From positions 1 through 52,044 of the IMG/VR virus record IMGVR_UViG_3300030329_005741: a stretch of 52,044 bases of DNA; one strand, 5' to 3'. Every line of letters begins with the position of its first letter. Positions within the stretch are counted from its first letter, which is position 1. The notes below the pieces were generated by a model. It did not search any database, had not been told where the DNA came from, and saw nothing but the letters and a program-made list of their open reading frames with translations. A program made the translations under genes and the position numbers. Source of the stretch: a virus. This document shows positions 32,950-43,174 of the stretch, in pieces.

Positions 32950-33248
32950 TTTACCTCCTCATATACTGGAAAGCTGCGTCCCTTGTGATAGTCATAAGCG
33001 GGAGACATAACGGACACAGGCTCGCTACCTGTCTGCACCATTAGCTTGCCAATGGCATAGTCTACCCAACCACGTTTTTGTTGGTTCCAGTAGAAGTCAA
33101 TTGCTTCTTTCATGTCTTTGACAAACTCAGGGGTTGCTGGCTTGTGTTCGCTTCTAAAGTGAGCGCAGACAGATTCTCTTGCGTAGTGCTTGGCACTGTC
33201 TTTAATCTCCGTTGCGTGGAGTTTGATATAATAATGTTGTTGTTCCAT
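32946..33248 (-). CDS. Hypothetical early protein
   Basis: A 100-residue protein with a His/Lys-rich helical first half (QQHYYIKLHATEIKDSAKHY) and a C-terminal segment naming VSVMSPAYDYHKGRSFPVYE. It is coupled to the gene at 32695 by a four-base overlap and follows the gene at 33260 by 11 bases. The function is unknown. Confidence 0.55.
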   Translation of the reverse strand: MEQQHYYIKLHATEIKDSAKHYARESVCAHFRSEHKPATPEFVKDMKEAIDFYWNQQKRGWVDYAIGKLMVQTGSEPVSVMSPAYDYHKGRSFPVYEEVK

Positions 33249-33259
33249 AATCTTTTTTG

Positions 33260-33457
33260 TTAGTCCCTGTCTCTAATGTCATTCCCATCATTGTCATTAT
33301 AATAACCTGACACGCCCCACATCTCGTCATAGTTGGGGGAGTTGTTTACCACTGGTCGCACGGGGGTAACTTCCAGCGCGGCTGCTTGTTTGGCTTCTTC
33401 TTTGTCTTTCATCTTATCTCTTATCCTTAAAATGTTTAACCAGTCTGCTCTTTTCAT
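33260..33457 (-). CDS. Hypothetical early protein
   Basis: A 65-residue protein starting MKRADWLNILRIRDKMKDKE and ending Asp/Asn-rich. I prefer ATG 33457, two bases after the preceding stop (TAGCATG), over ATG 33487, which would overlap the earlier gene by 29 bases. It is a Lys/Glu helix then an acidic tail. The function is unknown. Confidence 0.5.
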   Translation of the reverse strand: MKRADWLNILRIRDKMKDKEEAKQAAALEVTPVRPVVNNSPNYDEMWGVSGYYNDNDGNDIRDRD

Positions 33458-33458
33458 G

Positions 33459-33632
33459 CTATTCCATTTCCCGCCAGCTTTCGCCATCGTCGTAAGAAAT
33501 CAAATCCAATTCGTGAATCACACTTGCTTCTTGTCCTTCGTGGTCAAATCCACGTACTTCGTACTCTTTACCGTCAACAACGGCGTTTCCGTTTTCGTTT
33601 AGTTCTATGTCTTTTATAACGTTCATAATCAT
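33459..33632 (-). CDS. Small acidic early protein, 57 residues
   Basis: MIMNVIKDIELNENGNAVVD then GKEYEVRGFDHEGQEASVIH and the tail ELDLISYDDGESWREME. It starts five bases after a TATATT -10. Strand-turn-strand composition suggests a small beta protein. It is the first gene of a four-gene unit. Confidence 0.55.
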   Translation of the reverse strand: MIMNVIKDIELNENGNAVVDGKEYEVRGFDHEGQEASVIHELDLISYDDGESWREME

Positions 33633-33637
33633 GTCTT

Positions 33638-33643
33638 AATATA
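33638..33643 (-). promoter_or_regulatory. -10 element without TTGACA; -35 site occupied by a hairpin repeat
   Basis: TATATT, 5 bases, ATG. At the -35 position lies copy B of the 21-bp hairpin repeat and not TTGACA. This may be a regulated variant of the cassette. Confidence 0.45.
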
Positions 33644-33652
33644 CCATAGAGG

Positions 33653-33673
33653 GTGGGACATCTGTAGTCCTAC
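33653..33673. repeat. 21-bp hairpin repeat, copy B
   Basis: Identical to copy A. It overlaps the stop codon of the gene at 33670 and covers the expected -35 site of the next promoter. Confidence 0.7.
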
Positions 33674-33870
33674 CACTCACTTTCTACCAATAAACCCTTT
33701 AACATTTTAATCCGTCTTGGCGGGATATCCCCACCCTGTGGAAGGCTGGGATAATGCTCTACCTCTACCCAACCATTTACGGGATGCCTTGGACTGAGAT
33801 CACTGGTGACGATTCCTAGCCATCCACCATTGTCACGGTGACGTACTTTAGTTCCTGCCTTAATCTTCAT
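33670..33870 (-). CDS. Small KOW/SH3-like early protein
   Basis: A 66-residue protein: MKIKAGTKVRHRDNGGWLGI followed by VTSDLSPRHPVNGWVEVEHY. The pattern GTKVRHRDNGGWLGIV...WVEVEH fits a small SH3-like barrel. ATG 33870 is six bases from TATATT; the longer frame upstream is promoter sequence. Confidence 0.6.
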   Translation of the reverse strand: MKIKAGTKVRHRDNGGWLGIVTSDLSPRHPVNGWVEVEHYPSLPQGGDIPPRRIKMLKGLLVESEW

Positions 33871-33876
33871 TGATAC

Positions 33877-33905
33877 AATATACCACAAGAATGTTACTTT
33901 GTCAA
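33877..33905 (-). promoter_or_regulatory. Leaderless cassette promoter
   Basis: TTGACA, 17 bases, TATATT, 6 bases, ATG. Confidence 0.85.
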
Positions 33906-34141
33906 GCGGTTTTTTTAACTTTCTTAAATCCGTTTTCACAGTAGTCCGTGAGTCCCTGCTTGTTAATGAAATGCTCTGCCAATTCGTCAAAGTCATCCTC
34001 ACCTGTTCCCATGTCGTTAGCGTACTGCAACGCCCGAAACAAGCTGCAAGCTGTGTAGTGGTCATCGCAAGCCTTGGCGGCTGCGAGATTCTGCTTGCGG
34101 GTGGTGGGAACTACGTTTTGGACTTTACCGTTCTTAATCAT
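33902..34141 (-). CDS. Hypothetical early protein
   Basis: A 79-residue protein starting MIKNGKVQNVVPTTRKQNLA. The middle is helical and acidic (DMGTGEDDFDELAEHFINKQ), ending in Lys-rich FKKVKKTA. The last codons overlap the -35 of the next promoter. The function is unknown. Confidence 0.6.
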   Translation of the reverse strand: MIKNGKVQNVVPTTRKQNLAAAKACDDHYTACSLFRALQYANDMGTGEDDFDELAEHFINKQGLTDYCENGFKKVKKTA

Positions 34142-34147
34142 GGGTAT

Positions 34148-34176
34148 AATATAACACACAAGGAGCCGTTTGTCAA
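34148..34176 (-). promoter_or_regulatory. Leaderless cassette promoter
   Basis: TTGACA, 17 bases, TATATT, 6 bases, ATG. An inverted TTATTCACA box lies at 34195-34203. Confidence 0.85.
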
Positions 34177-34400
34177 TGGCTTTCTTGATAAAAGTTATTC
34201 ACAGGCTGAGCCCCTGTTGTAATCCCTTTAATGCTTTTTGCAAGACGCTCGGTTAGGTTAATCTTACCAAGAGCTTTTGCTGCTGGCGTTGGGTTTACTG
34301 CTGCCCAATCGTTCCAATAAGGAGACATAGGATCTGGGGCTGGTTCTCCGCCTACATAGATGCGCTTGGGGATTTCAGGAAGTTGATTTTCGTCTTTCAT
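34173..34400 (-). CDS. Hypothetical early protein
   Basis: A 75-residue protein starting MKDENQLPEIPKRIYVGGEP, Pro/Ala-rich, with PDPMSPYWNDWAAVNPTPAA in the middle. The ATG is seven bases from TATATT; the upstream frame is promoter. The function is unknown. Confidence 0.6.
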   Translation of the reverse strand: MKDENQLPEIPKRIYVGGEPAPDPMSPYWNDWAAVNPTPAAKALGKINLTERLAKSIKGITTGAQPVNNFYQESH

Positions 34401-34407
34401 TAGATAC

Positions 34408-34436
34408 AATATAACACAGGTTAAGTTGTTTGTCAA
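34408..34436 (-). promoter_or_regulatory. Leaderless cassette promoter
   Basis: TTGACA, 17 bases, TATATT, 7 bases, ATG. TTATTCACA box at 34441-34449, four bases from the -35, then the palindrome. Confidence 0.85.
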
Positions 34437-34458
34437 GGGTTGTGAATAACTTTCTTCA

Positions 34459-34505
34459 GAGTAAGTTGGCACGATGGCTGCGGCAGCTTCTATGCCAAGT
34501 TACTA
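34459..34505. repeat. 47-bp palindrome, copy 3
   Basis: Same length and arms (right end TTACTA); core TGCGGCA. It overlaps the stop codon of the gene at 34503. Confidence 0.85.
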
Positions 34506-34724
34506 ATCATAGCCTTCGGGGGGTATGAAAATTTTTGAGATATCTTTCATCGTCGCCTTAACGTTTGGCGAATTCCTCAAGAGGTCTGCTACCACGGCAA
34601 TAGCAAGATATTCGTCAGGCTGACAATTGCGCCAACCAACTTGTTTAGTCCATATCGCAGATTGACGTGTTCTGCTATTTTGAAAAATACAAAAGTCTGG
34701 TACTTCTTTATCTGTCATGTCCAT
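34503..34724 (-). CDS. Hypothetical early protein
   Basis: A 73-residue protein starting MDMTDKEVPDFCIFQNSRTR. It has a Trp-containing middle (AIWTKQVGWRNCQPDEYLAI) and an acidic/Lys C-terminus. The start overlaps the previous stop by ten bases (ATG 34724), or by four bases if ATG 34718 is used. The function is unknown. Confidence 0.55.
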   Translation of the reverse strand: MDMTDKEVPDFCIFQNSRTRQSAIWTKQVGWRNCQPDEYLAIAVVADLLRNSPNVKATMKDISKIFIPPEGYD

Positions 34725-34897
34725 TGCCCGTTAATGAATGCTGGCCCCTGAGGTATCTCAAGCACCAAGCCGTTATCCCTGAGGTATCCATCTATCCTAT
34801 CAAGGTCACTGGTTACTTGGCCCTCGCTCATAAGAGTCTTATACTCTTGAGGTGTTAACTTTATAGATACTAGCTCTGCTGTTAATGGTTCGTTCAT
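34715..34897 (-). CDS. Hypothetical early protein
   Basis: A 60-residue protein starting MNEPLTAELVSIKLTPQEYK. The leader is AACCAACCTACTATT, with no SD. Similar ACCTAC leaders occur before the AAA+ and rIIA genes. The function is unknown. Confidence 0.5.
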   Translation of the reverse strand: MNEPLTAELVSIKLTPQEYKTLMSEGQVTSDLDRIDGYLRDNGLVLEIPQGPAFINGQWT

Positions 34898-34910
34898 AAT
34901 AGTAGGTTGG

Positions 34911-35006
34911 TTAATGTGATATGCTCCACGCAGTAATTACTGCGCTAATCCAAAAGAGGACAGTGATATATGCTGCGATTTCTGTTTTGTCGTAGGTTCG
35001 TTTCAT
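34911..35006 (-). CDS. Tiny membrane protein, 31 residues
   Basis: MKRTYDKTEIAAYITVLFWI then SAVITAWSISH: one transmembrane helix with a basic N-terminus. It starts five bases after the TATATT of a strong promoter and heads a unit. It is too short for usual gene callers. Confidence 0.6.
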   Translation of the reverse strand: MKRTYDKTEIAAYITVLFWISAVITAWSISH

Positions 35007-35011
35007 AATAC

Positions 35012-35040
35012 AATATAGCACTAAATAGGTTGTTTGTCAA
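35012..35040 (-). promoter_or_regulatory. Leaderless cassette promoter
   Basis: TTGACA, 17 bases, TATATT, 5 bases, ATG. Confidence 0.85.
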
Positions 35041-35046
35041 GTCGAG

Positions 35047-35310
35047 TTAGAGCTTTTTAATGACGTTTATCCAATCTTGTACATCACTTTCATTCTGCCA
35101 ACCTTTGACGGTATCACCCCAATCAGCAGGGTCAACCATATGATTGTTAAAGAATACACCAATCTCATACAAACCTTTTTCGCTGCCGTATGAAAACTTG
35201 TGCTTCACAACAGAAACGTCATAGCCATTTGGCAATTCCACATACGCCTGAATCGCGCCTTCTCCATGCGTTTCAGAGATGTCATCAAATTTTAAATCTG
35301 TGAATTTCAT
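35047..35310 (-). CDS. Hypothetical early protein
   Basis: An 87-residue protein starting MKFTDLKFDDISETHGEGAI; beta-rich middle (AYVELPNGYDVSVVKHKFSY), then a helix ending in NVIKKL. It is the last of a five-gene unit. No strong SD is seen. The function is unknown. Confidence 0.55.
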   Translation of the reverse strand: MKFTDLKFDDISETHGEGAIQAYVELPNGYDVSVVKHKFSYGSEKGLYEIGVFFNNHMVDPADWGDTVKGWQNESDVQDWINVIKKL

Positions 35311-35338
35311 ATAGTATTAGCCTATTTTCTTATTCGCA

Positions 35339-35542
35339 TTAGAATGTTCTATGTTTCAAGTCTTCTGGCGTGGTGGTGGGTGGTCGCCAACCCTCATCAC
35401 ACTTGCAATACTTGGGGCAATCATCCTCGTCACTTCCTTCTTTGCTTGCTGTCTCGTGACAAGTCGGGCATAGGTGCAACAAGCGCATCTGTGGATGGTC
35501 ATTACAAAACTTTTTTGTTAGTGGGCCGAATTTAGTTGTCAT
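35339..35542 (-). CDS. Small Cys-rich, zinc-finger-like protein
   Basis: A 67-residue protein with LCPTCHETAS and a later CPKYCKCDEG: five Cys (plus His) spaced as a possible zinc site. The start overlaps the previous stop codon by 11 bases. A nucleic-acid or protein-binding role is inferred from the Cys layout. Confidence 0.55.
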   Translation of the reverse strand: MTTKFGPLTKKFCNDHPQMRLLHLCPTCHETASKEGSDEDDCPKYCKCDEGWRPPTTTPEDLKHRTF

Positions 35543-35750
35543 TTTTTTCGTTGTAATTAAATTCAGGGTAAGGAACTGGTGAGGTTCCTCTTAATCCGTC
35601 AATCAGCTTCTGCATCAAAAGAATATAACGCTCATTGTTTAGCCCAACCTCATCGGGTTCTAATTCTTTAGGCTCAACAATTCTTTCCCATTCAAGCAAT
35701 GCGTCAATGAGATTCCTTGTTTCTTCTCTAGTTAATTCAATGGTTTGCAT
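35532..35750 (-). CDS. Hypothetical early protein
   Basis: A 72-residue helical, acidic protein (MQTIELTREETRNLIDALLE start). AAAGGAG lies eight bases before ATG, and the ATG overlaps the previous stop codon (TAATG). The function is unknown. Confidence 0.6.
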   Translation of the reverse strand: MQTIELTREETRNLIDALLEWERIVEPKELEPDEVGLNNERYILLMQKLIDGLRGTSPVPYPEFNYNEKNDN

Positions 35751-35911
35751 TATACTAACTCCTTTGTTGCCGTTGGTTCTTTGCCTTCGCGGATAAGGTT
35801 AACGTCAAACGCGAACGCGCTTAATAGTTCGCCCTTGTCTGCGCCCCTGTTGCTGGCAATGATTGCCCACGTTAGGATTGCGTCAATTTGTTTTGATTCT
35901 TTAGTTGTCAT
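35750..35911 (-). CDS. Small early protein, 53 residues
   Basis: MTTKESKQIDAILTWAIIAS then NRGADKGELLSAFAFDVNLI and REGKEPTATKELV. It overlaps both neighbours (11 bases upstream, one base downstream), so it is embedded in a translationally coupled chain. Helical. The function is unknown. Confidence 0.55.
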   Translation of the reverse strand: MTTKESKQIDAILTWAIIASNRGADKGELLSAFAFDVNLIREGKEPTATKELV

Positions 35912-36143
35912 AGTTATGATTCTCCAATCCGTACATGCGTTTCACTTTCTTGTTGTCCTCAACAATCTCAAGTTTACCAACAGAATTTCCGTTGATGTCG
36001 ATAGCAAAAACAGCATCACCCGCATACTGAAGGCAATGCTCGTCTACATCCTGTGCCATGTTTCTCAAGATGCGAGCCAATTCCGTGGCGGGACGTTCGC
36101 CAAAAGCCGCATTACCCATGTTAATCTGAAGTGTCGCTTTCAT
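35901..36143 (-). CDS. Hypothetical early protein
   Basis: An 80-residue protein starting MKATLQINMGNAAFGERPAT. Strand-helix-strand pattern with an extended segment VFAIDINGNSVGKLEIVED. It is the first gene of a five-gene chain, with ATG six bases from TATATT. The function is unknown. Confidence 0.6.
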   Translation of the reverse strand: MKATLQINMGNAAFGERPATELARILRNMAQDVDEHCLQYAGDAVFAIDINGNSVGKLEIVEDNKKVKRMYGLENHNYDN

Positions 36144-36149
36144 TGTTAT

Positions 36150-36178
36150 AATATAGCACGGAAACCCGTGCTTGTCAA
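36150..36178 (-). promoter_or_regulatory. Leaderless cassette promoter
   Basis: TTGACA, 17 bases, TATATT, 6 bases, ATG; TTATTAACA box at 36183-36191. Confidence 0.85.
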
Positions 36179-36184
36179 GGGTTG

Positions 36185-36457
36185 TTAATAAGTTTCTTCA
36201 TCCTCCCACACATAGTCAGCGGGGGGCATTACTTCATCAAGTGCAGTTCCCTTGGCTTGGCTGATGATGTAGGGCTTAATCTCGTTCATGTCAACATCAC
36301 CCCATTCATTTTCAAAGCCCATGACAAAACCAAACGCAATTCCGTTTTCGTTTGGTGCGCCAAGATAATACTCCCAAAAATTACTGAGGATGATATGTTG
36401 GTGTACTGCGAAGGTTTGCCCTTTTCCGTCTACGTGTTTAATCAATCTCGGTTTCAT
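36185..36457 (-). CDS. Hypothetical early protein
   Basis: A 90-residue protein starting MKPRLIKHVDGKGQTFAVHQ; aromatic and acidic C-terminal half (VMPPADYVWEDEETY). The 3' end runs into the TTATTAACA box of the next promoter. The function is unknown. Confidence 0.6.
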   Translation of the reverse strand: MKPRLIKHVDGKGQTFAVHQHIILSNFWEYYLGAPNENGIAFGFVMGFENEWGDVDMNEIKPYIISQAKGTALDEVMPPADYVWEDEETY

Positions 36458-36463
36458 TAGTAC

Positions 36464-36492
36464 AATATAGCACCAAAGAATGTAATTGTCAA
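36464..36492 (-). promoter_or_regulatory. Leaderless cassette promoter
   Basis: TTGACA, 17 bases, TATATT, 6 bases, ATG. TTATTCACA box at 36497-36505, then palindrome copy 4. Confidence 0.85.
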
Positions 36493-36514
36493 GCGTTGTG
36501 AATAACTTTTTTCA

Positions 36515-36561
36515 GAGTAAGTTGGCACAAACACTGCGGCAAGACCCATGCCAAGTTACTC
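36515..36561. repeat. 47-bp palindrome, copy 4
   Basis: Same arms and length; core TGCGGCA. It lies just downstream of the 59-residue gene. Confidence 0.85.
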
Positions 36562-36587
36562 GGCGTGGGGTGTAGGTTGTTTACCAC

Positions 36588-36767
36588 TTACTTGGCCGTC
36601 AGGTGACGAACCAAGATCGGCAAAGCTGCCTTGATTTGGAAAAGGCGATAAGCCTCTGCCTTGGCAGTCTCATGCGCCACGCCCAATTTCTTTTGGGCGA
36701 TGATGTGGTTGGTGACTTGCGCGGCCTTGACCGCGTTGCGAGCTTGATATGTTTTGTAGGTTTTCAT
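36588..36767 (-). CDS. Small early protein, 59 residues
   Basis: MKTYKTYQARNAVKAAQVTN then HIIAQKKLGVAHETAKAEAY and the tail RLFQIKAALPILVRHLTAK. Basic, Ala-rich, helical. G+C is above its neighbours. A clear promoter ends nine bases from the ATG. The function is unknown. Confidence 0.6.
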   Translation of the reverse strand: MKTYKTYQARNAVKAAQVTNHIIAQKKLGVAHETAKAEAYRLFQIKAALPILVRHLTAK

Positions 36768-36776
36768 TATGTTTTA

Positions 36777-36804
36777 ATTATAGCACTCTTTTTTTTGTTG
36801 TCAA
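36777..36804 (-). promoter_or_regulatory. Near-leaderless promoter with consensus TATAAT
   Basis: TTGACA, 16 bases, TATAAT, 9 bases, ATG. It is the best match to consensus in the region. Confidence 0.8.
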
Positions 36805-37346
36805 TTAGATTCTTGCGCTTCTGGCGTCTGAACTTGTGCCCACACCTTATCTGTGATAATCACCTTGCGAGCGGTAAAGATTGGTTCGATAACATTCTCT
36901 ATGACACCCGTGACATCGTTGAATGTCTGGCGAAATGGATTGGTGTCGATACTCACGAAGGTGCGATACTTGTAAGGGTTGTAAGTGACTTCCATCCACT
37001 CGTACCCCTCGCGCTCATCCATCTCACGCTGCTTCATTTCCTTGGCTGCATCATTGGCCCAGCCCAATTCAAACGCATCCATGTCATCGTAACGCCACAC
37101 AGCGTTAATCATGCAACCACGAATCACAGCATGGACATTCTTACGCTCTTCATCACGCACACGTTGACAGCCCTTGTCACCCACGGCAAATTTCACAGGG
37201 TACTTGGTAGTGCCATCCATCACAACGCACAGGGCAGTACCCTCAACAAGGCCATCCTTACGCACGGAGTAAACGTGTTCGTCACGGTAGCGAAGGTTGC
37301 GATATACTTCACGTTTGAATAACTTGATTGTTTCTTTTGCGTTCAT
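36801..37346 (-). CDS. Hypothetical early protein
   Basis: A 181-residue protein starting MNAKETIKLFKREVYRNLRY. The middle has short strands (KYPVKFAVGDKGCQRVRDEE, split) and a basic/acidic mix; the last third is beta-rich (EWMEVTYNPYKYRTFVSIDT). The last codons overlap the -35 of the next promoter. The function is unknown. Confidence 0.65.
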   Translation of the reverse strand: MNAKETIKLFKREVYRNLRYRDEHVYSVRKDGLVEGTALCVVMDGTTKYPVKFAVGDKGCQRVRDEERKNVHAVIRGCMINAVWRYDDMDAFELGWANDAAKEMKQREMDEREGYEWMEVTYNPYKYRTFVSIDTNPFRQTFNDVTGVIENVIEPIFTARKVIITDKVWAQVQTPEAQESN

Positions 37347-37354
37347 CTTGATAC

Positions 37355-37383
37355 AATATAGCCTATAAACGTCACTTTGTCAA
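37355..37383 (-). promoter_or_regulatory. Cassette promoter, leader about 2 bases
   Basis: TTGACA, 17 bases, TATATT, 8 bases, ATG; TTATTAACA box at 37388-37396. Confidence 0.8.
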
Positions 37384-37401
37384 GGGTTGTTAATAACTTT
37401 T

Positions 37402-37566
37402 TTATTCGTAGTCATCGTGGCAAGAAAACTCCACCCGAACGACTAACCCAAGATTCATTGTGCGAGCTATGCGTGTAGCGTGTGCCTCATCGTAAGCCTT
37501 GATGGGGATTATGGACATTTGTGGGCCGTCAACCATTGTTACTTTGTAGATACTTTCCGTTTTCAT
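37402..37566 (-). CDS. Small early protein, 54 residues
   Basis: MKTESIYKVTMVDGPQMSII then PIKAYDEAHATRIARTMNLG and LVVRVEFSCHDDYE. Strand-helix-strand pattern of a small alpha/beta protein. The longer upstream frame is only promoter sequence. The function is unknown. Confidence 0.6.
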   Translation of the reverse strand: MKTESIYKVTMVDGPQMSIIPIKAYDEAHATRIARTMNLGLVVRVEFSCHDDYE

Positions 37567-37572
37567 TGTTAC

Positions 37573-37601
37573 AATATACCACATAAACGATGGTTTGTCA
37601 A
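37573..37601 (-). promoter_or_regulatory. Leaderless cassette promoter
   Basis: TTGACA, 17 bases, TATATT, 6 bases, ATG; TTATTAACA box at 37606-37614. Confidence 0.85.
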
Positions 37602-37627
37602 GGGTTGTTAATAACTTTTTAAATTGT

Positions 37628-38137
37628 GAGATGCTTCTTGTGAGGGTGCATCCCAACCCACGACCACTTAAGTTTATTCTGGTTGGCCGCTTAACCGCGT
37701 TTAGGTTTCTTACTCGCTCCAGTTACCTTTTTCCTTTCTGGTCTTGTTACCTCGCCACGGCTTTCCACATTGCCGACAGAAGGATTACTTATCTGCGTCC
37801 GGTTGAGGCGAGGGTAAATTGCTGCTGGTGTGAGGGGCTCGAACCCTCCCCCGTCCCTATCGTGTCACCGTCTAGTTTCAATGCATCTCCACTAGGGGCT
37901 TTCAGCCACGGGCGGTATTGCGGTACTTAACGCCTTGTAGGCCCGATACCCGTGATGGGGCGGTAACCGTGCGTCAGAGGTTATAACCGAATACTTCCAG
38001 TCTCACCAACATAAATTGTTGTCCTCCTAATCATCACGCTGTTTTCTTGTCTTGGTCGCACCAAGGGGTCTTGCCCCAAACATGGCCTTGCCGCGTCAAG
38101 CGTAGGTTTTCGGAGAACTAAATCTCTCTCAAAGAAC
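37628..38137 (-). ncRNA. Candidate large structured RNA, about 0.5 kb
   Basis: A strong cassette promoter points into about 510 bases with no minus-strand ORF over 60 codons. The stretch is G+C-richer than its neighbours and full of local pairing: GGGG-loop-CCCC (38065-38077), CTTGGT-GCG-ACCAAG (38051-38065), a tRNA T-arm look-alike GAGGG-TTCGAGC-CCCTC (37832-37848), and a last GATGC/GCATC hairpin (37630-37652). The other copies of this promoter start proteins, so an RNA product here stands out. By size, phage location and promoter it resembles large ornate phage RNAs such as ROOL or GOLLD; I cannot assign a family by eye. The 3' end is estimated. It contains AGGAGG followed by a 12-codon ORF, probably not translated, since a small hairpin covers the start. 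Confidence 0.55.
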
Positions 38138-38143
38138 TAATAC

Positions 38144-38172
38144 AATATAACACACAAACCCCCATCTGTCAA
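38144..38172 (-). promoter_or_regulatory. Cassette promoter for the structured RNA
   Basis: TTGACA, 17 bases, TATATT; no ATG follows within 100 bases. Expected RNA start near 38137. Confidence 0.8.
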
Positions 38173-38191
38173 ATGGTTTTTTAACTTTTTT

Positions 38192-38370
38192 TTAATTACC
38201 CTAATTAATCGCATTTAATTACCTTAATTGTTTGTCGCTCATCTGTGATTGGCAAATCATTTTGTCGCTCATTATAGAGGCTTTTTGATCGGCAACAGTT
38301 GATAGTCACTTTTAAGTTTCGTGAAAAGGGGTGTTTTCTCCGATGCAAAATTCGTCGTTTTTACGAAACT
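38192..38370. repeat. Direct and inverted repeats upstream of the RNA promoter
   Basis: TTTGTCGCTCAT occurs at 38231-38242 and 38261-38272 (30-base step). TTAATTACCYTAATT occurs at 38192-38206 and 38215-38229 (23-base step). AGTTTCGT at 38315-38322 pairs with ACGAAACT at 38363-38370. No gene is seen in 38173-38370, so this looks like a regulatory region. Confidence 0.6.
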
Positions 38371-38417
38371 GAGTAAGTTGGCATAAAAGCTGCCGCACGC
38401 CCCGTGCCAAGTTACTC
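38371..38417. repeat. 47-bp palindrome, copy 5
   Basis: Same arms and length; core TGCCGCA. It lies 16 bases after the stop of the gene at 38433. Confidence 0.85.
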
Positions 38418-38432
38418 ACGGGGGTGGGGATT

Positions 38433-38591
38433 TTATTCGCGGGGAATAAATCCCTCTTCTATTAGATAATAGGCCAACATTTCTATTTCTTCTTCTTGGT
38501 AGGGTTCGGGAAAGACTATTTCATGATTGTTAGTGTCAAGAAAAATTTTTCTTCCCATGATTGTTATTTCCTTTAGTGTGTCCGCTTTCAT
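38433..38591 (-). CDS. Small early protein, 52 residues
   Basis: MKADTLKEITIMGRKIFLDT then NNHEIVFPEPYQEEEIEMLA and the tail YYLIEEGFIPRE. GAGGAG lies ten bases before ATG. The ATG overlaps the previous stop codon (TAATG). Acidic, helix-strand mix. The function is unknown. Confidence 0.6.
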   Translation of the reverse strand: MKADTLKEITIMGRKIFLDTNNHEIVFPEPYQEEEIEMLAYYLIEEGFIPRE

Positions 38592-38662
38592 TACATTTTG
38601 CTCCTCATTTTATATAAGATTGCCCCGACTGTAACCACGGACATAATGGCGATGACTTCCAT
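38591..38662 (-). CDS. Tiny membrane protein, 23 residues
   Basis: MEVIAIMSVVTVGAILYKMR-SKM: one transmembrane helix with a basic C-terminus. It sits 14 bases after the GP88-like stop codon and is coupled to the next gene by TAATG. It resembles, in start and layout, the tiny membrane protein at 51001 (MIEVIAIIIP). Confidence 0.55.
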   Translation of the reverse strand: MEVIAIMSVVTVGAILYKMRSKM

Positions 38663-38676
38663 ATCTTTACTTTCTC

Positions 38677-39429
38677 TTAGAGGGTTTTTTGTTTGTTTGC
38701 TTTTTTGATTGCAGATAGAGCGACACTCGCCGCACTACCTTTTGGTTGGGTTCCGTGAATCAATAGAGCAAAGTTTTCGTGTCCAAATGCCGCGTGGGTG
38801 TCGTCGTGGTCAATTTCCAAGTCACGTTCTTCTGCCTCTTGTTCGCTGTAAACAACGAGAGCCTCTTTCCATCCGTGCTGGTCAATCAATTCGTCATGCT
38901 TGCCACCACGAGAAGCAGTTAACACAAGGTTTTCTGGTCTCGCAACATCCGCAAAGAAATGCAAGCTTTTTGAATAGGAGTAAAAAATCTTGTCGGGATT
39001 GCGTGTCGCTACTTCTACCCACGCCTTCAGATAGTCTTTACTGAAATAATCGCCGCCAACGTGAACGCGCATAATGTCAAAATCTTTTGGAAGTGACTCG
39101 CATATGAGATCCGCCAAGGCTTGCACCTTGTCGCGCTTGTATCGCCACGCGTTTGTCATGGTGCTTCGAATCAAATCCAAGTTATGCCAAACAAGTTTAC
39201 GCAAAGACGGAGAGCGAGCTTCTGCGCTTGCCATAAAGCAGCGAAACACAGTTTCGTCCCCGTCTTGAACCTTGCCCGTAATTCTATCTGACTTGGAAAG
39301 ACAATCTTTTGCACCGGGGCAAGTATGCCCTGCGGGAAGTGTGAAGGTTTTAAGCTTAAGCTTTAACTTCTTAAGCATTTTTTTTAGTTTAGCGTTCGGA
39401 TCTCCAAACTTTAGTAGGTTGTTGTTCAT
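38677..39429 (-). CDS. GP88-like phage protein
   Basis: A 250-residue protein. LPAGHTCPGAKDCLSKSDR, then ETVFRCFMASAEAR and IMRVHVGGDYFSKDYLKAWV, then FYSYSKSLHF and LVLTASRGGKHDELID are the ordered motifs of the Gene product 88 family known from actinophages and other phages. The Cys and His/Asp motifs suggest a metal site. Its role is not established; a nucleic-acid function has been suggested for the family. It heads a three-gene unit with a leaderless promoter. Confidence 0.7.
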   Translation of the reverse strand: MNNNLLKFGDPNAKLKKMLKKLKLKLKTFTLPAGHTCPGAKDCLSKSDRITGKVQDGDETVFRCFMASAEARSPSLRKLVWHNLDLIRSTMTNAWRYKRDKVQALADLICESLPKDFDIMRVHVGGDYFSKDYLKAWVEVATRNPDKIFYSYSKSLHFFADVARPENLVLTASRGGKHDELIDQHGWKEALVVYSEQEAEERDLEIDHDDTHAAFGHENFALLIHGTQPKGSAASVALSAIKKANKQKTL

Positions 39430-39435
39430 AATAAT

Positions 39436-39464
39436 AATATAACACAGGTTGTTGGTTTTGTCAA
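39436..39464 (-). promoter_or_regulatory. Leaderless cassette promoter for the GP88-like gene
   Basis: TTGACA, 17 bases, TATATT, 6 bases, ATG. Confidence 0.85.
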
Positions 39465-39465
39465 G

Positions 39466-39936
39466 TCACCCAAGGCGTTTCGCTGAAGTAGACTGTAAGG
39501 TTTCAACAGCTTTACTTTTCCACGCTTCCTCATCGTTAGCAATGCCATCGAGTTGCACAACAAGAGATTCACTCTTGGAAACGGAATAGTCATAATTGAC
39601 AAGGGAGGTGGAATAAAAAACTTCGGTGTTTTCCTTTAATTCTTCAAACCTACGTTTGGCAAGTTTTCTCGCGTCCTCCATAACGCCGCCTTTTATGCCC
39701 TTATACTTTTCGGGGAACTTGTTTAAAAGTAAATGAAAAGAGGAGTTAAGAAAATAACGCTCCAACTTTTCGTCACTGGTCGTTATGTAATGAAAGTTTT
39801 CGCTCATCTCGTGAAGCTTACCTGACGTTGCGCCGTGGTTCCAGAACGACCAATACTGCTCTGTTCGTTCGGTTTCGTCGTTGGTTTCAATTCCTACGAG
39901 AGAGGATGTTCCAAGTGGTTGATAAATAAGTTTCAT
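39466..39936 (-). CDS. Hypothetical early protein
   Basis: A 156-residue protein starting MKLIYQPLGTSSLVGIETND. ATG 39936 is chosen since the upstream frame is leader. Beta-rich first third, then a helical basic part (EDARKLAKRRFEELKENTEV). The leader CTAACAACGAACGAAAAGCT is about 17 bases, so this unit is not leaderless. The function is unknown. Confidence 0.6.
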   Translation of the reverse strand: MKLIYQPLGTSSLVGIETNDETERTEQYWSFWNHGATSGKLHEMSENFHYITTSDEKLERYFLNSSFHLLLNKFPEKYKGIKGGVMEDARKLAKRRFEELKENTEVFYSTSLVNYDYSVSKSESLVVQLDGIANDEEAWKSKAVETLQSTSAKRLG

Positions 39937-39959
39937 AGCTTTTCGTTCGTTGTTAGTAC

Positions 39960-39988
39960 AATATAACACACAAACGCCTACTTGTCAA
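39960..39988 (-). promoter_or_regulatory. Cassette promoter with a short leader
   Basis: TTGACA, 17 bases, TATATT, then 23 bases to ATG. The leader shares AACGAACGAAA with two other units (31239 and, as AAACGAAA, 41183). Confidence 0.8.
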
Positions 39989-40124
39989 GGGGGCGACGGT
40001 GTTTTTTTCTTCTTTTGTAAGACCCTTTTCCTTTTTTTGCGCGGTGGACGCGAGACGCGCTGCCCATCAAGCCATCTTTGTTGACTCTACCGCGAATGCG
40101 TTTTGCTTTCTTTCTGCGCCTCAT
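39978..40124 (-). CDS. ArfA-like ribosome-rescue peptide, 48 residues
   Basis: A short, very basic protein: MRRRKKAKRIRGRVNKDGLM, then GSASRVHRAKKGKGSYKRRK and KHRRPLDK. The core RVxxxKKGKGSYxRxxKH matches the ribosome-binding tail of bacterial ArfA (E. coli RVEKNKKGKGSYMRKGKH), including the KKGKGSY heptad that enters the mRNA channel. ArfA frees stalled ribosomes with release factor 2. The usual hydrophobic N-terminal segment is replaced by an Arg/Lys stretch. The stop codon is intact, unlike the truncated host mRNA mode. The ATG is five bases from TACATT, so it is leaderless. The activity is inference. Confidence 0.5.
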   Translation of the reverse strand: MRRRKKAKRIRGRVNKDGLMGSASRVHRAKKGKGSYKRRKKHRRPLDK

Positions 40125-40129
40125 ACAAC

Positions 40130-40158
40130 AATGTAACACACAAATGCGAATCTGTCAA
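40130..40158 (-). promoter_or_regulatory. Leaderless cassette promoter for the ArfA-like gene
   Basis: TTGACA, 17 bases, TACATT, 5 bases, ATG; TTATTCACA box at 40164-40172. Confidence 0.8.
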
Positions 40159-40180
40159 CCCATTGTGAATAACTTTTTTT

Positions 40181-40227
40181 GAGTAAGTTGGCACAAAAGC
40201 TGCCGCACGCCGCATGCCAAGTTACTC
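40181..40227. repeat. 47-bp palindrome, copy 6
   Basis: Same arms and length; core TGCCGCA. A perfect TTATCCACA DnaA box lies right beside it (40230-40238). Confidence 0.85.
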
Positions 40228-40247
40228 GTTGTGGATAACTTGTGGAC

Positions 40248-40275
40248 AAAAAAAATCCCCCCGACTAGCGGGGGG
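40248..40275 (-). terminator. Rho-independent terminator after the DUF932 gene
   Basis: Minus strand CCCCCC, loop, GGGGGG, A, eight T. It ends the 41183 unit before palindrome copy 6. Confidence 0.9.
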
Positions 40276-40295
40276 CGATGAACAACAAACGGAAC

Positions 40296-41183
40296 TTATT
40301 CAGCTACAACTACAACAGCGTTGGACTTGGCGGGAGTCCAGAGTTTTTCCAAACGCCCCTTGTTACGCGCTGCCATATCAAAACGCTTTAGCACGTTAGT
40401 GGTCACGCGGTTAGCGTACTCAAAACGCTCGTCAGCAACTTCGTGAGTCATGTGTTGAGTCACGGCGTTGTTAAGGTTGTACAGGTTGCGATCCTTGTCC
40501 TCTTCGTGGGTTGGGTTGTTCCAGATAAGTGCGATGGACTCGCGAACCTTTTCAGAAATCACCTTGGCGTTAGCAAGGTTTTGCAGAATGTTCAAGCCCT
40601 GCTCCTGCTCCAAAGAAACACCAGCGAGGCGACCATACACGTTTACGCTGTTGGATAACTTGGCAAGCGCACCGTCCAGAGCGTCATCGCTGATGATGTC
40701 GCCAATGCGGATTTGTGTGGAGTGCTTTTTGACCATCTCCACTTCTTTTTCCATTGTGGTCATACCGTTGGTGCAAACCAACCGCATAAGACCCAAGGCG
40801 AAAGACACACGCAGCGAGCGGTCAAACGAATTTTGGGCGGTGAGACGGTAAGCCATAGTGTCGCCTACTTGGGGAACATCAGCGCGGAACATATCACCAG
40901 AAAGGTCGTACTGCGCTCGCATTTTTGCCCCGCCTTCGGTTATGATAACCTTGCGAGTAACGTCGATACCGCGATCCTCAAAAGCCTTGTCGGCGCGGTC
41001 AAGTAAATCACCGTTTTGCACAAGGCCGTAACGGTCACTTGTCCAGCCCAGAATCTCATCGTTATCCTCGCGGATGTTCATAAAATAGCCGGACTTGTTT
41101 CCGGTTTCGGGATGCGGAACTTCAACTTGCTTCACGCGGTAGTCAAATCCATCATTCACTTTTTGGTTTGCTGTAATAGGCAT
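40296..41183 (-). CDS. DUF932 family phage/plasmid protein
   Basis: A 295-residue protein. The start KVNDGFDYRVKQVEVPHPET, the strand DNDEILGWTSDRYGLVQNGD, and MAYRLTAQNSFDRSLRVSFA with LMRLVCTNGMTTMEKE are DUF932 landmarks, widespread in phages and plasmids. The family role is not known; it often lies near replication or recombination genes. The leader is about 45 bases long. The strong terminator after it suggests high expression. Confidence 0.8.
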   Translation of the reverse strand: MPITANQKVNDGFDYRVKQVEVPHPETGNKSGYFMNIREDNDEILGWTSDRYGLVQNGDLLDRADKAFEDRGIDVTRKVIITEGGAKMRAQYDLSGDMFRADVPQVGDTMAYRLTAQNSFDRSLRVSFALGLMRLVCTNGMTTMEKEVEMVKKHSTQIRIGDIISDDALDGALAKLSNSVNVYGRLAGVSLEQEQGLNILQNLANAKVISEKVRESIALIWNNPTHEEDKDRNLYNLNNAVTQHMTHEVADERFEYANRVTTNVLKRFDMAARNKGRLEKLWTPAKSNAVVVVAE

Positions 41184-41228
41184 TTTTTAGTCTTTCGTTT
41201 AGTTGTTTATCTCTCTCTTACTAATAAC

Positions 41229-41256
41229 AATATAACACACATTTCAGAAAAGTCAA
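41229..41256 (-). promoter_or_regulatory. Promoter of the DUF932 gene, long leader
   Basis: TTGACT, 16 bases, TATATT, then 45 bases to ATG. The leader ends CTAAACGAAAGACTAAAAA. Confidence 0.7.
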
Positions 41257-41266
41257 GCGGTAAACC

Positions 41267-41443
41267 TCACTTTCTTGCATTTTCTTTCTTACAATGTTCA
41301 CACTCGCACCCCTCTATAACCCCAAAAGGCTCCTTGGGTGGAGTAGGGAACAGGCAGGACAGGCAAGCGCCGCCATTACCCTCTAACAGTAAGGCATCAT
41401 TCCCGCATTGGTTGCAAGGCTCAAATGTGGTTTGCGTTGTCAT
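41267..41443 (-). CDS. Small double-zinc-knuckle protein, 58 residues
   Basis: MTTQTTFEPCNQCGNDALLL then EGNGGACLSCLFPTPPKEPF and GVIEGCECEHCKKENARK. CNQC with CLSC forms a zinc ribbon; CECEHC is a second Cys cluster. ATG is six bases from TATATT; the longer frame upstream is promoter. A DNA- or RNA-binding role is possible. Confidence 0.65.
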   Translation of the reverse strand: MTTQTTFEPCNQCGNDALLLEGNGGACLSCLFPTPPKEPFGVIEGCECEHCKKENARK

Positions 41444-41449
41444 TGGTAT

Positions 41450-41478
41450 AATATACCCCATAAAAGTCACTTTGTCAA
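41450..41478 (-). promoter_or_regulatory. Leaderless cassette promoter
   Basis: TTGACA, 17 bases, TATATT, 6 bases, ATG; TTATTCACA box at 41483-41491. Confidence 0.85.
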
Positions 41479-41498
41479 TGGTTGTGAATAACTTTCTT

Positions 41499-41545
41499 GA
41501 GTAAGTTGGCATGGTCGCTGCTGCGCATTTTTTACCAAGTTACAA
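41499..41545. repeat. 47-bp palindrome, copy 7 (degenerate)
   Basis: The left arm is intact; core TGCTGCG and the right arm (ACCAAGTTACAA) are changed. Length is still 47. Confidence 0.75.
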
Positions 41546-41570
41546 GCGAAAAAATCAAAAACTTACTCAC

Positions 41571-41599
41571 AAAAAAATCCCACCCTGTTACAGATGGGA
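41571..41599 (-). terminator. Terminator after the AAA+ gene
   Basis: Minus strand TCCCA, loop of 12, TGGGA, seven T. It ends the AAA+ unit. Confidence 0.75.
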
Positions 41600-41605
41600 C
41601 TTTAT

Positions 41606-41682
41606 TTATTATTTAGCTATTATTTATTTGTCTGGTATTTATTTGCCTACTATTAAACTATTATTTATTTAGATGATATTTA
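41606..41682. repeat. AT-rich tandem TATTTATT repeats
   Basis: Degenerate TATTTATTT units repeat about six times (minus strand AAATAAATA). They lie between the AAA+ stop codon and its terminator. The function is unknown; this could be a protein-loading or melting site. Confidence 0.5.
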
Positions 41683-42642
41683 TTATTCCTCCTCTTCATC
41701 TAATGCTTTAAGGTAGTTGTGTCCAACGCTAGTGAGTGAGCGACCACCAGTGTTAATCTCCATTAGGTTATGCTTCTGAATATATAATTCAAAGTCCTGA
41801 CGGATACACTGTACGGTTAACCCCGTCTTTGCAGATAGGTTGGTAAGGCTCGACTCCTTTTTCTCTGCTAGTGCGCGGAGTATCTGAATCTCAATGCGAT
41901 TCAAGCCAAGAGGAAGAATACCGAGAGCGTGTTTAAGATCGTCCCAATGTTTCCTTACGAACTTGTTTGCCTTTTTACGTTGTAAATAGCTTTTCATGTT
42001 TTGCGCCATCTTCTGCGCTGCGCGAGCATTGCCACGGAGAACGGGAGCAATCTCACCAAGAAGATCACGGTCACAATCTAATTCGATAGACTCAAGGTTG
42101 CGCTGCATAATCTCACCAAGCTCATCGTATGTGTATTCCTCCAAATCAATACGGTCACAACGATCAATCAAAGCATGAAACATCTTGTGTGCTTCGGTGG
42201 TGGCGAACATAAAGGACTGACGCCTAAAATCAAAATCCATCACATAATCCTCGAAAGAAAATGTGGTGCGATTCTCTGGATTCGGATTCAACACGGTCAA
42301 GAGCATCATAGTAACGCTCTTGGGCAGTTCGCTCGATTCGTCGAACAACACGGTCACTTCCTTGTCGTGAATGTGGGGTACAACAACTTGGTTGATAAAT
42401 TGAGGAACGGACTTGAGAGTAGAACAGTTAATCTCCAAGAACGTCTTTGGCTTGCCCGTCTCATCATTCATAAGGTTCTGCCCTGCTGCTTTAGCCAAGG
42501 TAGTCTTACCGCAACCCTTTGGTGCAATAAACAATAGGTGTGGAATGACGTTGGACGCTTGATAGTTATCCAAGTGAAAACCGAGCTTACGCTTGGCAGC
42601 ATCTTGGCCCACGATATGCGGGAATCTGTTAGGTTGTTTCAT
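41683..42642 (-). CDS. RuvB-like AAA+ ATPase
   Basis: A 319-residue protein. The start FPHIVGQDAAKRKLGFHLDN is the RuvB-type N-terminal helix; Walker A is APKGCGKTTLA (Lys46, Thr47), Walker B VTVLFDES (Asp101, Glu102), sensor-type strand FMFATTEAHKM and Arg-finger-type LIDRCDRIDLEEY. The C-terminal about 80 residues read as a winged helix (RIEIQILRALAEKKESSLTN), as in RuvB. It likely moves Holliday junctions or acts as a DNA motor; no RuvA or RuvC is in the window. The leader ACAACCTACT before ATG has no SD. Confidence 0.8.
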   Translation of the reverse strand: MKQPNRFPHIVGQDAAKRKLGFHLDNYQASNVIPHLLFIAPKGCGKTTLAKAAGQNLMNDETGKPKTFLEINCSTLKSVPQFINQVVVPHIHDKEVTVLFDESSELPKSVTMMLLTVLNPNPENRTTFSFEDYVMDFDFRRQSFMFATTEAHKMFHALIDRCDRIDLEEYTYDELGEIMQRNLESIELDCDRDLLGEIAPVLRGNARAAQKMAQNMKSYLQRKKANKFVRKHWDDLKHALGILPLGLNRIEIQILRALAEKKESSLTNLSAKTGLTVQCIRQDFELYIQKHNLMEINTGGRSLTSVGHNYLKALDEEEE

Positions 42643-42669
42643 AGTAGGTTGTTTATGTTAATAGCTTTC

Positions 42670-42912
42670 TTACCAGTTATCTTTTGTTACCTTCACCTCC
42701 GCAACAGGCTCAAGTTCTTCAGTCTTAACTTTAACTGGAGTTTGAGCTTCGATGTTGGTGGTGGTAGCAGCAAAATTTTCAGTATCCAAAGATAGCGTCT
42801 CTGCAAATCTGCGCGATACGATAACAGTAGCATCTTCTTTTAGAACGCGGTTGAGTTCGCGTAGGTTTACTTGAACGAAACTCCCCGCACCTTTTGTCTT
42901 TCCTCTTGCCAT
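42670..42912 (-). CDS. Small hypothetical protein
   Basis: An 80-residue protein starting MARGKTKGAGSFVQVNLREL. Residues 12-45 form strand-helix-strand (FVQVNLRELNRVLKEDATVI); the C-terminal half is Thr/Glu/Val-rich and likely extended. It is first in the AAA+ unit, with ATG six bases from TATATT. The function is unknown. Confidence 0.6.
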   Translation of the reverse strand: MARGKTKGAGSFVQVNLRELNRVLKEDATVIVSRRFAETLSLDTENFAATTTNIEAQTPVKVKTEELEPVAEVKVTKDNW

Positions 42913-42918
42913 ACTCTT

Positions 42919-42946
42919 AATATAACAGGTTTTTTAAGAAAGTCAA
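42919..42946 (-). promoter_or_regulatory. Leaderless promoter, 16-base spacer
   Basis: TTGACT, 16 bases, TATATT, 6 bases, ATG. Confidence 0.75.
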
Positions 42947-42985
42947 CCCCTAATCAATAAATAGTTAAAAATAATTTAAAATAGT

Positions 42986-43174
42986 TTAAGAATCACTTTT
43001 AACAATTTGGTCTTGTATAAGTCTATCTACCTTATCGTTGAATCTAATAGCTGTATTGGATTCTGGTTTGTCAATTACAATCTCTCTAATCTCATGGTCG
43101 AGACTATCAAGCTCTTTGAAGTATATTTCTTTGTGGAAGTCCCAATATTTGGGATGCAGTTTATTAGTTTTCAT
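42986..43174 (-). CDS. Hypothetical early protein
   Basis: A 62-residue helical, charged protein starting MKTNKLHPKYWDFHKEIYFK. It starts four bases after the previous stop codon. The function is unknown. Confidence 0.5.
   Translation of the reverse strand: MKTNKLHPKYWDFHKEIYFKELDSLDHEIREIVIDKPESNTAIRFNDKVDRLIQDQIVKSDS

Follow-up and report, generated by a model that had tools for sequence, protein, structure and literature searches.

The window analysed in this study, a stretch of 52,044 nucleotides, is a 52-kb phage contig from an IMG/VR record that carries terminase and rIIA-like genes, and the RNA considered here lies on its minus strand. A sigma70-type promoter with an extended TG (TTGACA-17-TATATT; 38172-38144, minus strand) matches the consensus at 11/12 positions and gives a predicted +1 at 38137, the same coordinate at which the original prediction had ended its region. 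On its 3′ side lie ~510 nt of non-coding DNA with a GC content of 0.518, compared with 0.394 for the window. An ORF of 40 or more codons is found within 200 nt downstream of 15 of the 16 cassette promoters (33-44 kb), and this promoter is the sole exception, which bears out the claim of a promoter without an ORF. At 12 of the 16 (minus strand, 33000-43000), a start codon occurs 5-9 nt past the -10 box, mostly at 6 nt; those cassette genes are therefore leaderless, which seems to be usual for mRNAs from this part of the phage genome. The gene that comes next (start 37566) is preceded by a strong promoter of its own (37601-37573). We also observed a 48-nt imperfect inverted repeat (GAGTAAGTTGGCA..TGCCAAGTTACTC) in five intergenic copies (34458, 36514, 38370, 40180 and 41498), which are present on both strands as near-complements and are possibly terminators or protein sites.

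Conserved protein coding in relatives, the outcome that the original prediction had set against itself, was looked for in all frames of the transcript and none was found. Among antisense frames, the longest (100 aa) undergoes a frameshift and meets a stop in relative L004. The sense frame that crosses the conserved core lacks a start codon in most members and runs into stops in L010, L051 and L060. In the L007-like group, the few core changes occur at third codon positions of a single open frame, as they would in a coding sequence. That frame nevertheless lacks starts and is closed by stops in three members, and a coding reading of the region was rejected. Single-sequence folding energy is unexceptional (z = 0.69 for the whole transcript and 0.37 for the core), and thus structure can be demonstrated only by comparison with relatives. 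The many hairpins described earlier are accordingly chance-like if folding energy alone is considered, but structure does emerge from the comparison described below. The suggested Rfam search yielded no gathering match in the window and, with the threshold relaxed to E = 10, no meaningful one either, in agreement with the proposal of a structured non-coding phage RNA of ~500 nt without an Rfam 15 family. The region is almost certainly a real structured non-coding RNA, and our computational analysis shows a phage promoter that would give rise to an untranslated minus-strand transcript of ~510 nt made of separable structured modules.

A tRNA-like domain and its relatives

The central domain (TLS; 38011-37823, minus strand, as are all features below) scores 119.8 bits with covariance model R1, with G1 at 38010 and A73 at 37823. 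Its acceptor-like stem pairs GUUGGUG (38010-38004) with CACCAGC (37830-37824) at 7/7 positions and has changes on both sides in relatives, and A73 is invariant. What had been described as a T-arm look-alike is a true T-arm (GAGGG-UUCGAGC-CCCUC, 5 bp; 37848-37832), paired with the acceptor-like stem; the corresponding stems in relatives are UCAGG/CCUGA, UCGGG/CCCGA and UGAGG/CCUCG with a UUCRANY loop. The domain also includes an AYUGG (A-Y-U-G-G) element, the GG of which lies outside the D-side stem. The D-side helix, P2, is formed by GUAUU (37994-37990) and AAUAC (37919-37915), and in the window an extra motif, GGUUAUAACC..CGUUAAGUACCGC, is nested within it that is free-standing downstream of the TLS in L053. 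P3, the "anticodon-side" helix, pairs CCCGU (37912-37908) with ACGGG (37854-37850), is seen as CCCGU/ACGGG, CUGAC/GUCGG or CCCUC/GAGGG among relatives, and encloses a nearly invariant core of ~45 nt (AAGCCCCUAG...CUAGACGGUGAYACGAUA; 37901-37858) that contains the P4 hairpin GCC-CUAG / CUAG-GGU. In a 10-sequence alignment, the invariant columns inside P3 read AAAGCC-P4-GGUGAYACGAUA, and P4 itself changes from CUAG/CUAG to CCAG/CUGG in L052 and to an ACGC/GCGU-type stem in L047 and L100.

Most members share what is generally expected of a tRNA-like structure, a 7-bp acceptor (7/7 pairs) and a 5-bp T-arm (5/5 pairs) with a 7-nt UUCRANY loop. The tRNA geometry is imperfect since one extra base lies between T-stem and acceptor stem in the window, L045, L047, L051, L010 and L100. 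Acceptor pairing falls to 6/7 in L007, L048 and L056, and to 5/7 in L052. None of the 15 members encodes a CCA after A73, where mostly RCAAUUU-type linkers are found, and no aminoacylation signal was recognised in the domain. The central domain is very probably tRNA-like.

The structure was defined from the 10-sequence alignment and R1, and covarying stems among relatives, which the original prediction had proposed as its own test, were found. In a 15-member alignment fitted to the covariance model, 94.3% of cells are paired and 57 cells differ at both partner positions. The covariation score of this alignment is 0.440 compared with 0.154 in shuffles (0/500 reach it), and slid partners give at most 0.105. 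The counts of pairs and of pair types, the measures least inflated by relatedness, are not above shuffles in the fitted alignment (72/500 and 116/500); they exceeded shuffles (0/500 and 2/500) in an earlier alignment that included the weak member L024. A MAFFT alignment gives the same pair table, and from it RNAalifold recovered the same helices unaided; in a hand alignment P2 is paired in 40/40 cases with 8 distinct strand combinations (0/10000 shuffles). A geometry-only scan for acceptor, T-arm and TGG, which used no model, found ten distinct places in 734 kb (13 rows, with two registers for three of the places), all of them already-known members except L024, and found none in the reversed sequence. 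Four members outside the model training set (L010, L051, L059 and L100) score 64-123 bits.

Relatives were gathered via neighbouring genes and short DNA patterns, and the related domain is present in 15 other IMG/VR phage contigs, all uncultured, for a total of 16 contigs with the window, a count that includes both L052 and L054, whose sequences do not differ here. In L004 and L007, the RNA occupies the same place beside a Gp88-like gene, and L004 is 87% identical over 462 nt. Further members are found in other contigs (L045, L047, L048, L049, L051, L052/L054, L053, L056, L059, L060, L010 and L099/L100); the 5′ end of L059 is at the contig start, and the acceptor assignment made there by the model is not trusted. 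L005 and L006 have the neighbouring genes and no RNA operon in that place, and the operon is therefore gained or lost as a unit. The L024 domain (L024:5753-5903), picked up by the geometry scan, is more distant with a weak score of 20 bits. Its acceptor GGCGGGA/UCCCGUC is followed by GCCA, an encoded CCA, and it lies behind a promoter and directly upstream of a Gp88-like gene. Pattern matches in L055, L057, L058 and L061 were rejected as they have no other part of the domain.

Beyond these contigs, the DNA of the stretch has no real match among known phages, and the tRNA-like RNA has no match among ~50,700 phage records. A pattern scan of 84,980 bacterial species returned 13 matches, with no T-arm or GGTGAYACGATA in the flanks shown; this is about or below the number expected by chance and the matches were taken as such. 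R1 found nothing in 591 genomes from two phyla, the ones to which a Leptolyngbya and an alphaproteobacterial MAG belong, under strict filters and with no positive control, nor in stretches of S-CREM1, S-SRM01 and AG-345-A17. No description of this RNA was found among open-licence papers. Since neither that literature nor any Rfam family accounts for it, we regard the RNA as a new family within the tRNA-like structures, a general kind already known.

A mosaic of separable modules

The window transcript consists, in order, of a boxA-like leader, a leader module, the tRNA-like domain, module D and a 3′ module. The leader, GTTCTTTGAGA (38137-38127), forms the predicted 5′ terminus of the transcript and is called boxA-like for its resemblance to rRNA leaders. 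TTCTTTGARA occurs a single time in the 52-kb window, where this RNA begins; about one occurrence is expected by chance, and therefore it is the position rather than the count that is informative. The same motif is found in the array leaders of seven other distinct contigs. Of 8 distinct arrays, most have it just past the promoter, among them L004, L007, L009, L011, L048 and L056. Neither a promoter nor a boxA was found near the domain in L045 and L047.

The leader module, compared among the window, L004, L007 and L009, is closed by ACGCU (38103-38099) and AGCGU (38040-38036), and its interior varies among relatives. Module D (37813-37750) is a CCUCGCC/GGCGAGG stem around CUCAACCGG...CGGCAAUG...AGCCGUGG. 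Over 7 relatives it is 93.5% paired, with both partners altered in 7 pairs and a covariation of 0.476 (0/500 shuffles), and the pattern is present in 5 viral contigs, following another motif, GGTGCTGGGTTA, in L051 and L011. The 3′-terminal module, GGTAACTGGAGCGAGTAAG... (37727-37628), ends in the hairpin GGGAUGC/GCAUCUC (37654-37628); here 103 nt are identical between the window and L004, the module is also present in L007, and a U-run follows it in L004 and not in the window. These modules of ~60-190 nt are separable, being shuffled, nested or lost among relatives. Two additional observations were made in the arrays. In L099, module D comes after a short ORF, and a long gene-free stretch with apparent hairpins (~7370-7130; L099:6500-7500, minus strand) lies downstream of the tRNA-like domain. 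L045, L049 and L053 share a motif, GAGAGAAACATACTCGTTG...GCCGAAAGGTGGGGAAACGGGAAACCGCCGATG, closed by GAGAG/CUCUC, 3′ of the domain.

A second family of phage RNA takes part in the arrays. The manA (RF01745) and wcaG RNAs of marine phages and cyanophages are likewise structured RNAs, and manA RNA adjoins the domain in L048, L052 and L056, and below the cut-off also in L045 and L047. The two thus share arrays in five contigs, although they differ in fold and sequence, and the window has no match to the Rfam model of manA. L009 and L011 are boxA-led arrays without the tRNA-like domain, with sequence close to the manA stretches of L048 and L056. In the cyanophage S-CREM1 (L096, 1633-2002), manA lies flush between tRNA-Leu and tRNA-Asn, which fits an array reading, and the tRNA cluster also holds wcaG and abiF RNAs. 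This placement in S-CREM1 favours the view that manA is processed from a longer RNA over the view that it leads an mRNA.

Competing readings and a proposed mechanism

The position of the domain relative to a promoter differs among phages. In L060 and L010, the promoter scan places the end of the -10 box exactly 6 nt before G1, such that the predicted +1 is the first acceptor-stem base, and a reading of the L051 and L100 sequences gives the same fit for extended TGn -10 boxes that the scan did not call; elsewhere the domain is internal. The 6-nt spacing matches that between -10 box and ATG in the leaderless genes of the window phage. A domain that begins at the predicted +1 could also be a cis-acting leader, one that sits at an mRNA 5′ end and regulates the gene that follows at the level of translation or stability. 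L060, where ACAATTTATG and a short ORF follow directly, fits such a role, and manA was earlier proposed to be cis-regulatory (PMC2864571). The next gene varies among phages, however, several arrays have no gene for hundreds of bases downstream, and a separate promoter serves that gene both in the window (37601-37573) and in L004. Because of that promoter a leader role is implausible for the window; it is plausible for L060, and as a general explanation we regard it as unlikely.

Among known RNAs, tmRNA is close in build. The tRNA-like domain of tmRNA (RF00023) also combines an acceptor stem and a T-arm with a UUCGA loop, lacks a normal D-stem, follows the acceptor strand with an A/U-UGG element, and has an expanded anticodon-side helix. 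A degenerate or divergent tmRNA that rescues or hijacks stalled ribosomes with a short tag frame would account for the T-arm, the acceptor-like stem, the AYUGG where a D-stem would be expected and the expanded helix at the anticodon position, as well as for the one frame across the core that is open, albeit with no start codon, in most members. Against this, Rfam has no tmRNA match in the window (searched to E up to 10) or in relatives, and ARAGORN finds neither tmRNA nor tRNA in them. No conserved tag is encoded: the members share neither a start nor a stop for the frame, which continues into the T-arm or, in L010, L051 and L060, terminates. Positions 3-70 are U-A or U-G in members with GUUGGUG and another pair elsewhere, so that G3:U70, the pair that marks alanine acceptance, is absent. 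Unlike tmRNA, the phage domain has no pseudoknot ring and no encoded CCA, has ~60 nt between D-side hairpin and T-arm, and holds the ~45-nt conserved core inside its long helix. A degenerate or divergent tmRNA is thus very improbable.

No better placed is the proposal, made in the original prediction, of a single large ornate RNA of ROOL/GOLLD type with its modules in one fold or cage. These are likewise long non-coding phage RNAs, and the phage location, the ~500 nt with no ORF and the high sequence constraint in the 3′ module agree with it, but neither Rfam model matches and the transcript is a mosaic of small shuffled units. As the modules are apart, nested or missing among relatives, no fixed overall fold is conserved, and this part of the proposal was set aside as very doubtful. 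An intron-interrupted tRNA gene with the core as intron, suggested by an insert where the anticodon arm should be, can practically be dismissed, given that no group I or II intron model of Rfam matches in the window, the shortest members (125-128 nt) are too small for a self-splicing intron, the GG element is outside the D-side stem, and no anticodon stem-loop was found.

The explanation that we favour, with a probability of roughly 0.6 for the whole, is a modular non-coding RNA with a tRNA-like domain, tRNA-type processing and a trans-acting core. Phage tRNA gene arrays, in which tRNA-shaped units with short AU-rich linkers are punctuated out of one transcript, offer a precedent, with the difference that the unit here is not a tRNA (ARAGORN and RF00005 negative) and that the spacers are structured RNAs themselves. 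The boxA-like leader would let RNA polymerase transcribe the RNA untranslated, as in rRNA and tRNA operons. The T-loop would contact the GG of the AYUGG element to form a tRNA-type elbow, and host tRNA enzymes would release an internal domain, RNase P at G1 and RNase Z after A73. In other phages, transcription may start at G1 itself, which would give the identical 5′ end; the L060 RNA would be 128 nt. The tRNA-like shell would define, punctuate and protect the ends of a stable RNA, while the conserved P3-P4 core (~45 nt) would do the actual work in trans, on a partner from host or phage whose usual task may be the handling of tRNA. Non-translated transcription and a tRNA-like shell point to stable-RNA biogenesis, and the invariance of the core suggests that its partner is a specific one. 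The processing and punctuation steps, read from sequence and structure, are tentative and somewhat less probable than their opposite. A broader version, in which polycistronic operons of structured non-coding RNA in some uncultured phages are assembled from an exchangeable kit of the tRNA-like RNA, manA and several other modules, rely on boxA antitermination and cutting by tRNA enzymes, and carry a tRNA-like RNA whose core targets the host translation or tRNA machinery as a new trans-acting class, is more speculative still, and we consider it rather unlikely.

The RNA described here adds a tRNA-like class that is neither tRNA nor tmRNA and is missing from Rfam 15. Its context may unlock the puzzle of manA, an orphan riboswitch candidate since 2010, since the occurrence of manA in gene-free arrays and between tRNA genes suggests that it may be a processed, trans-acting RNA and not a leader. 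Should the reading in terms of boxA and tRNA processing hold, phages would run whole non-coding operons on the stable-RNA machinery of their hosts.
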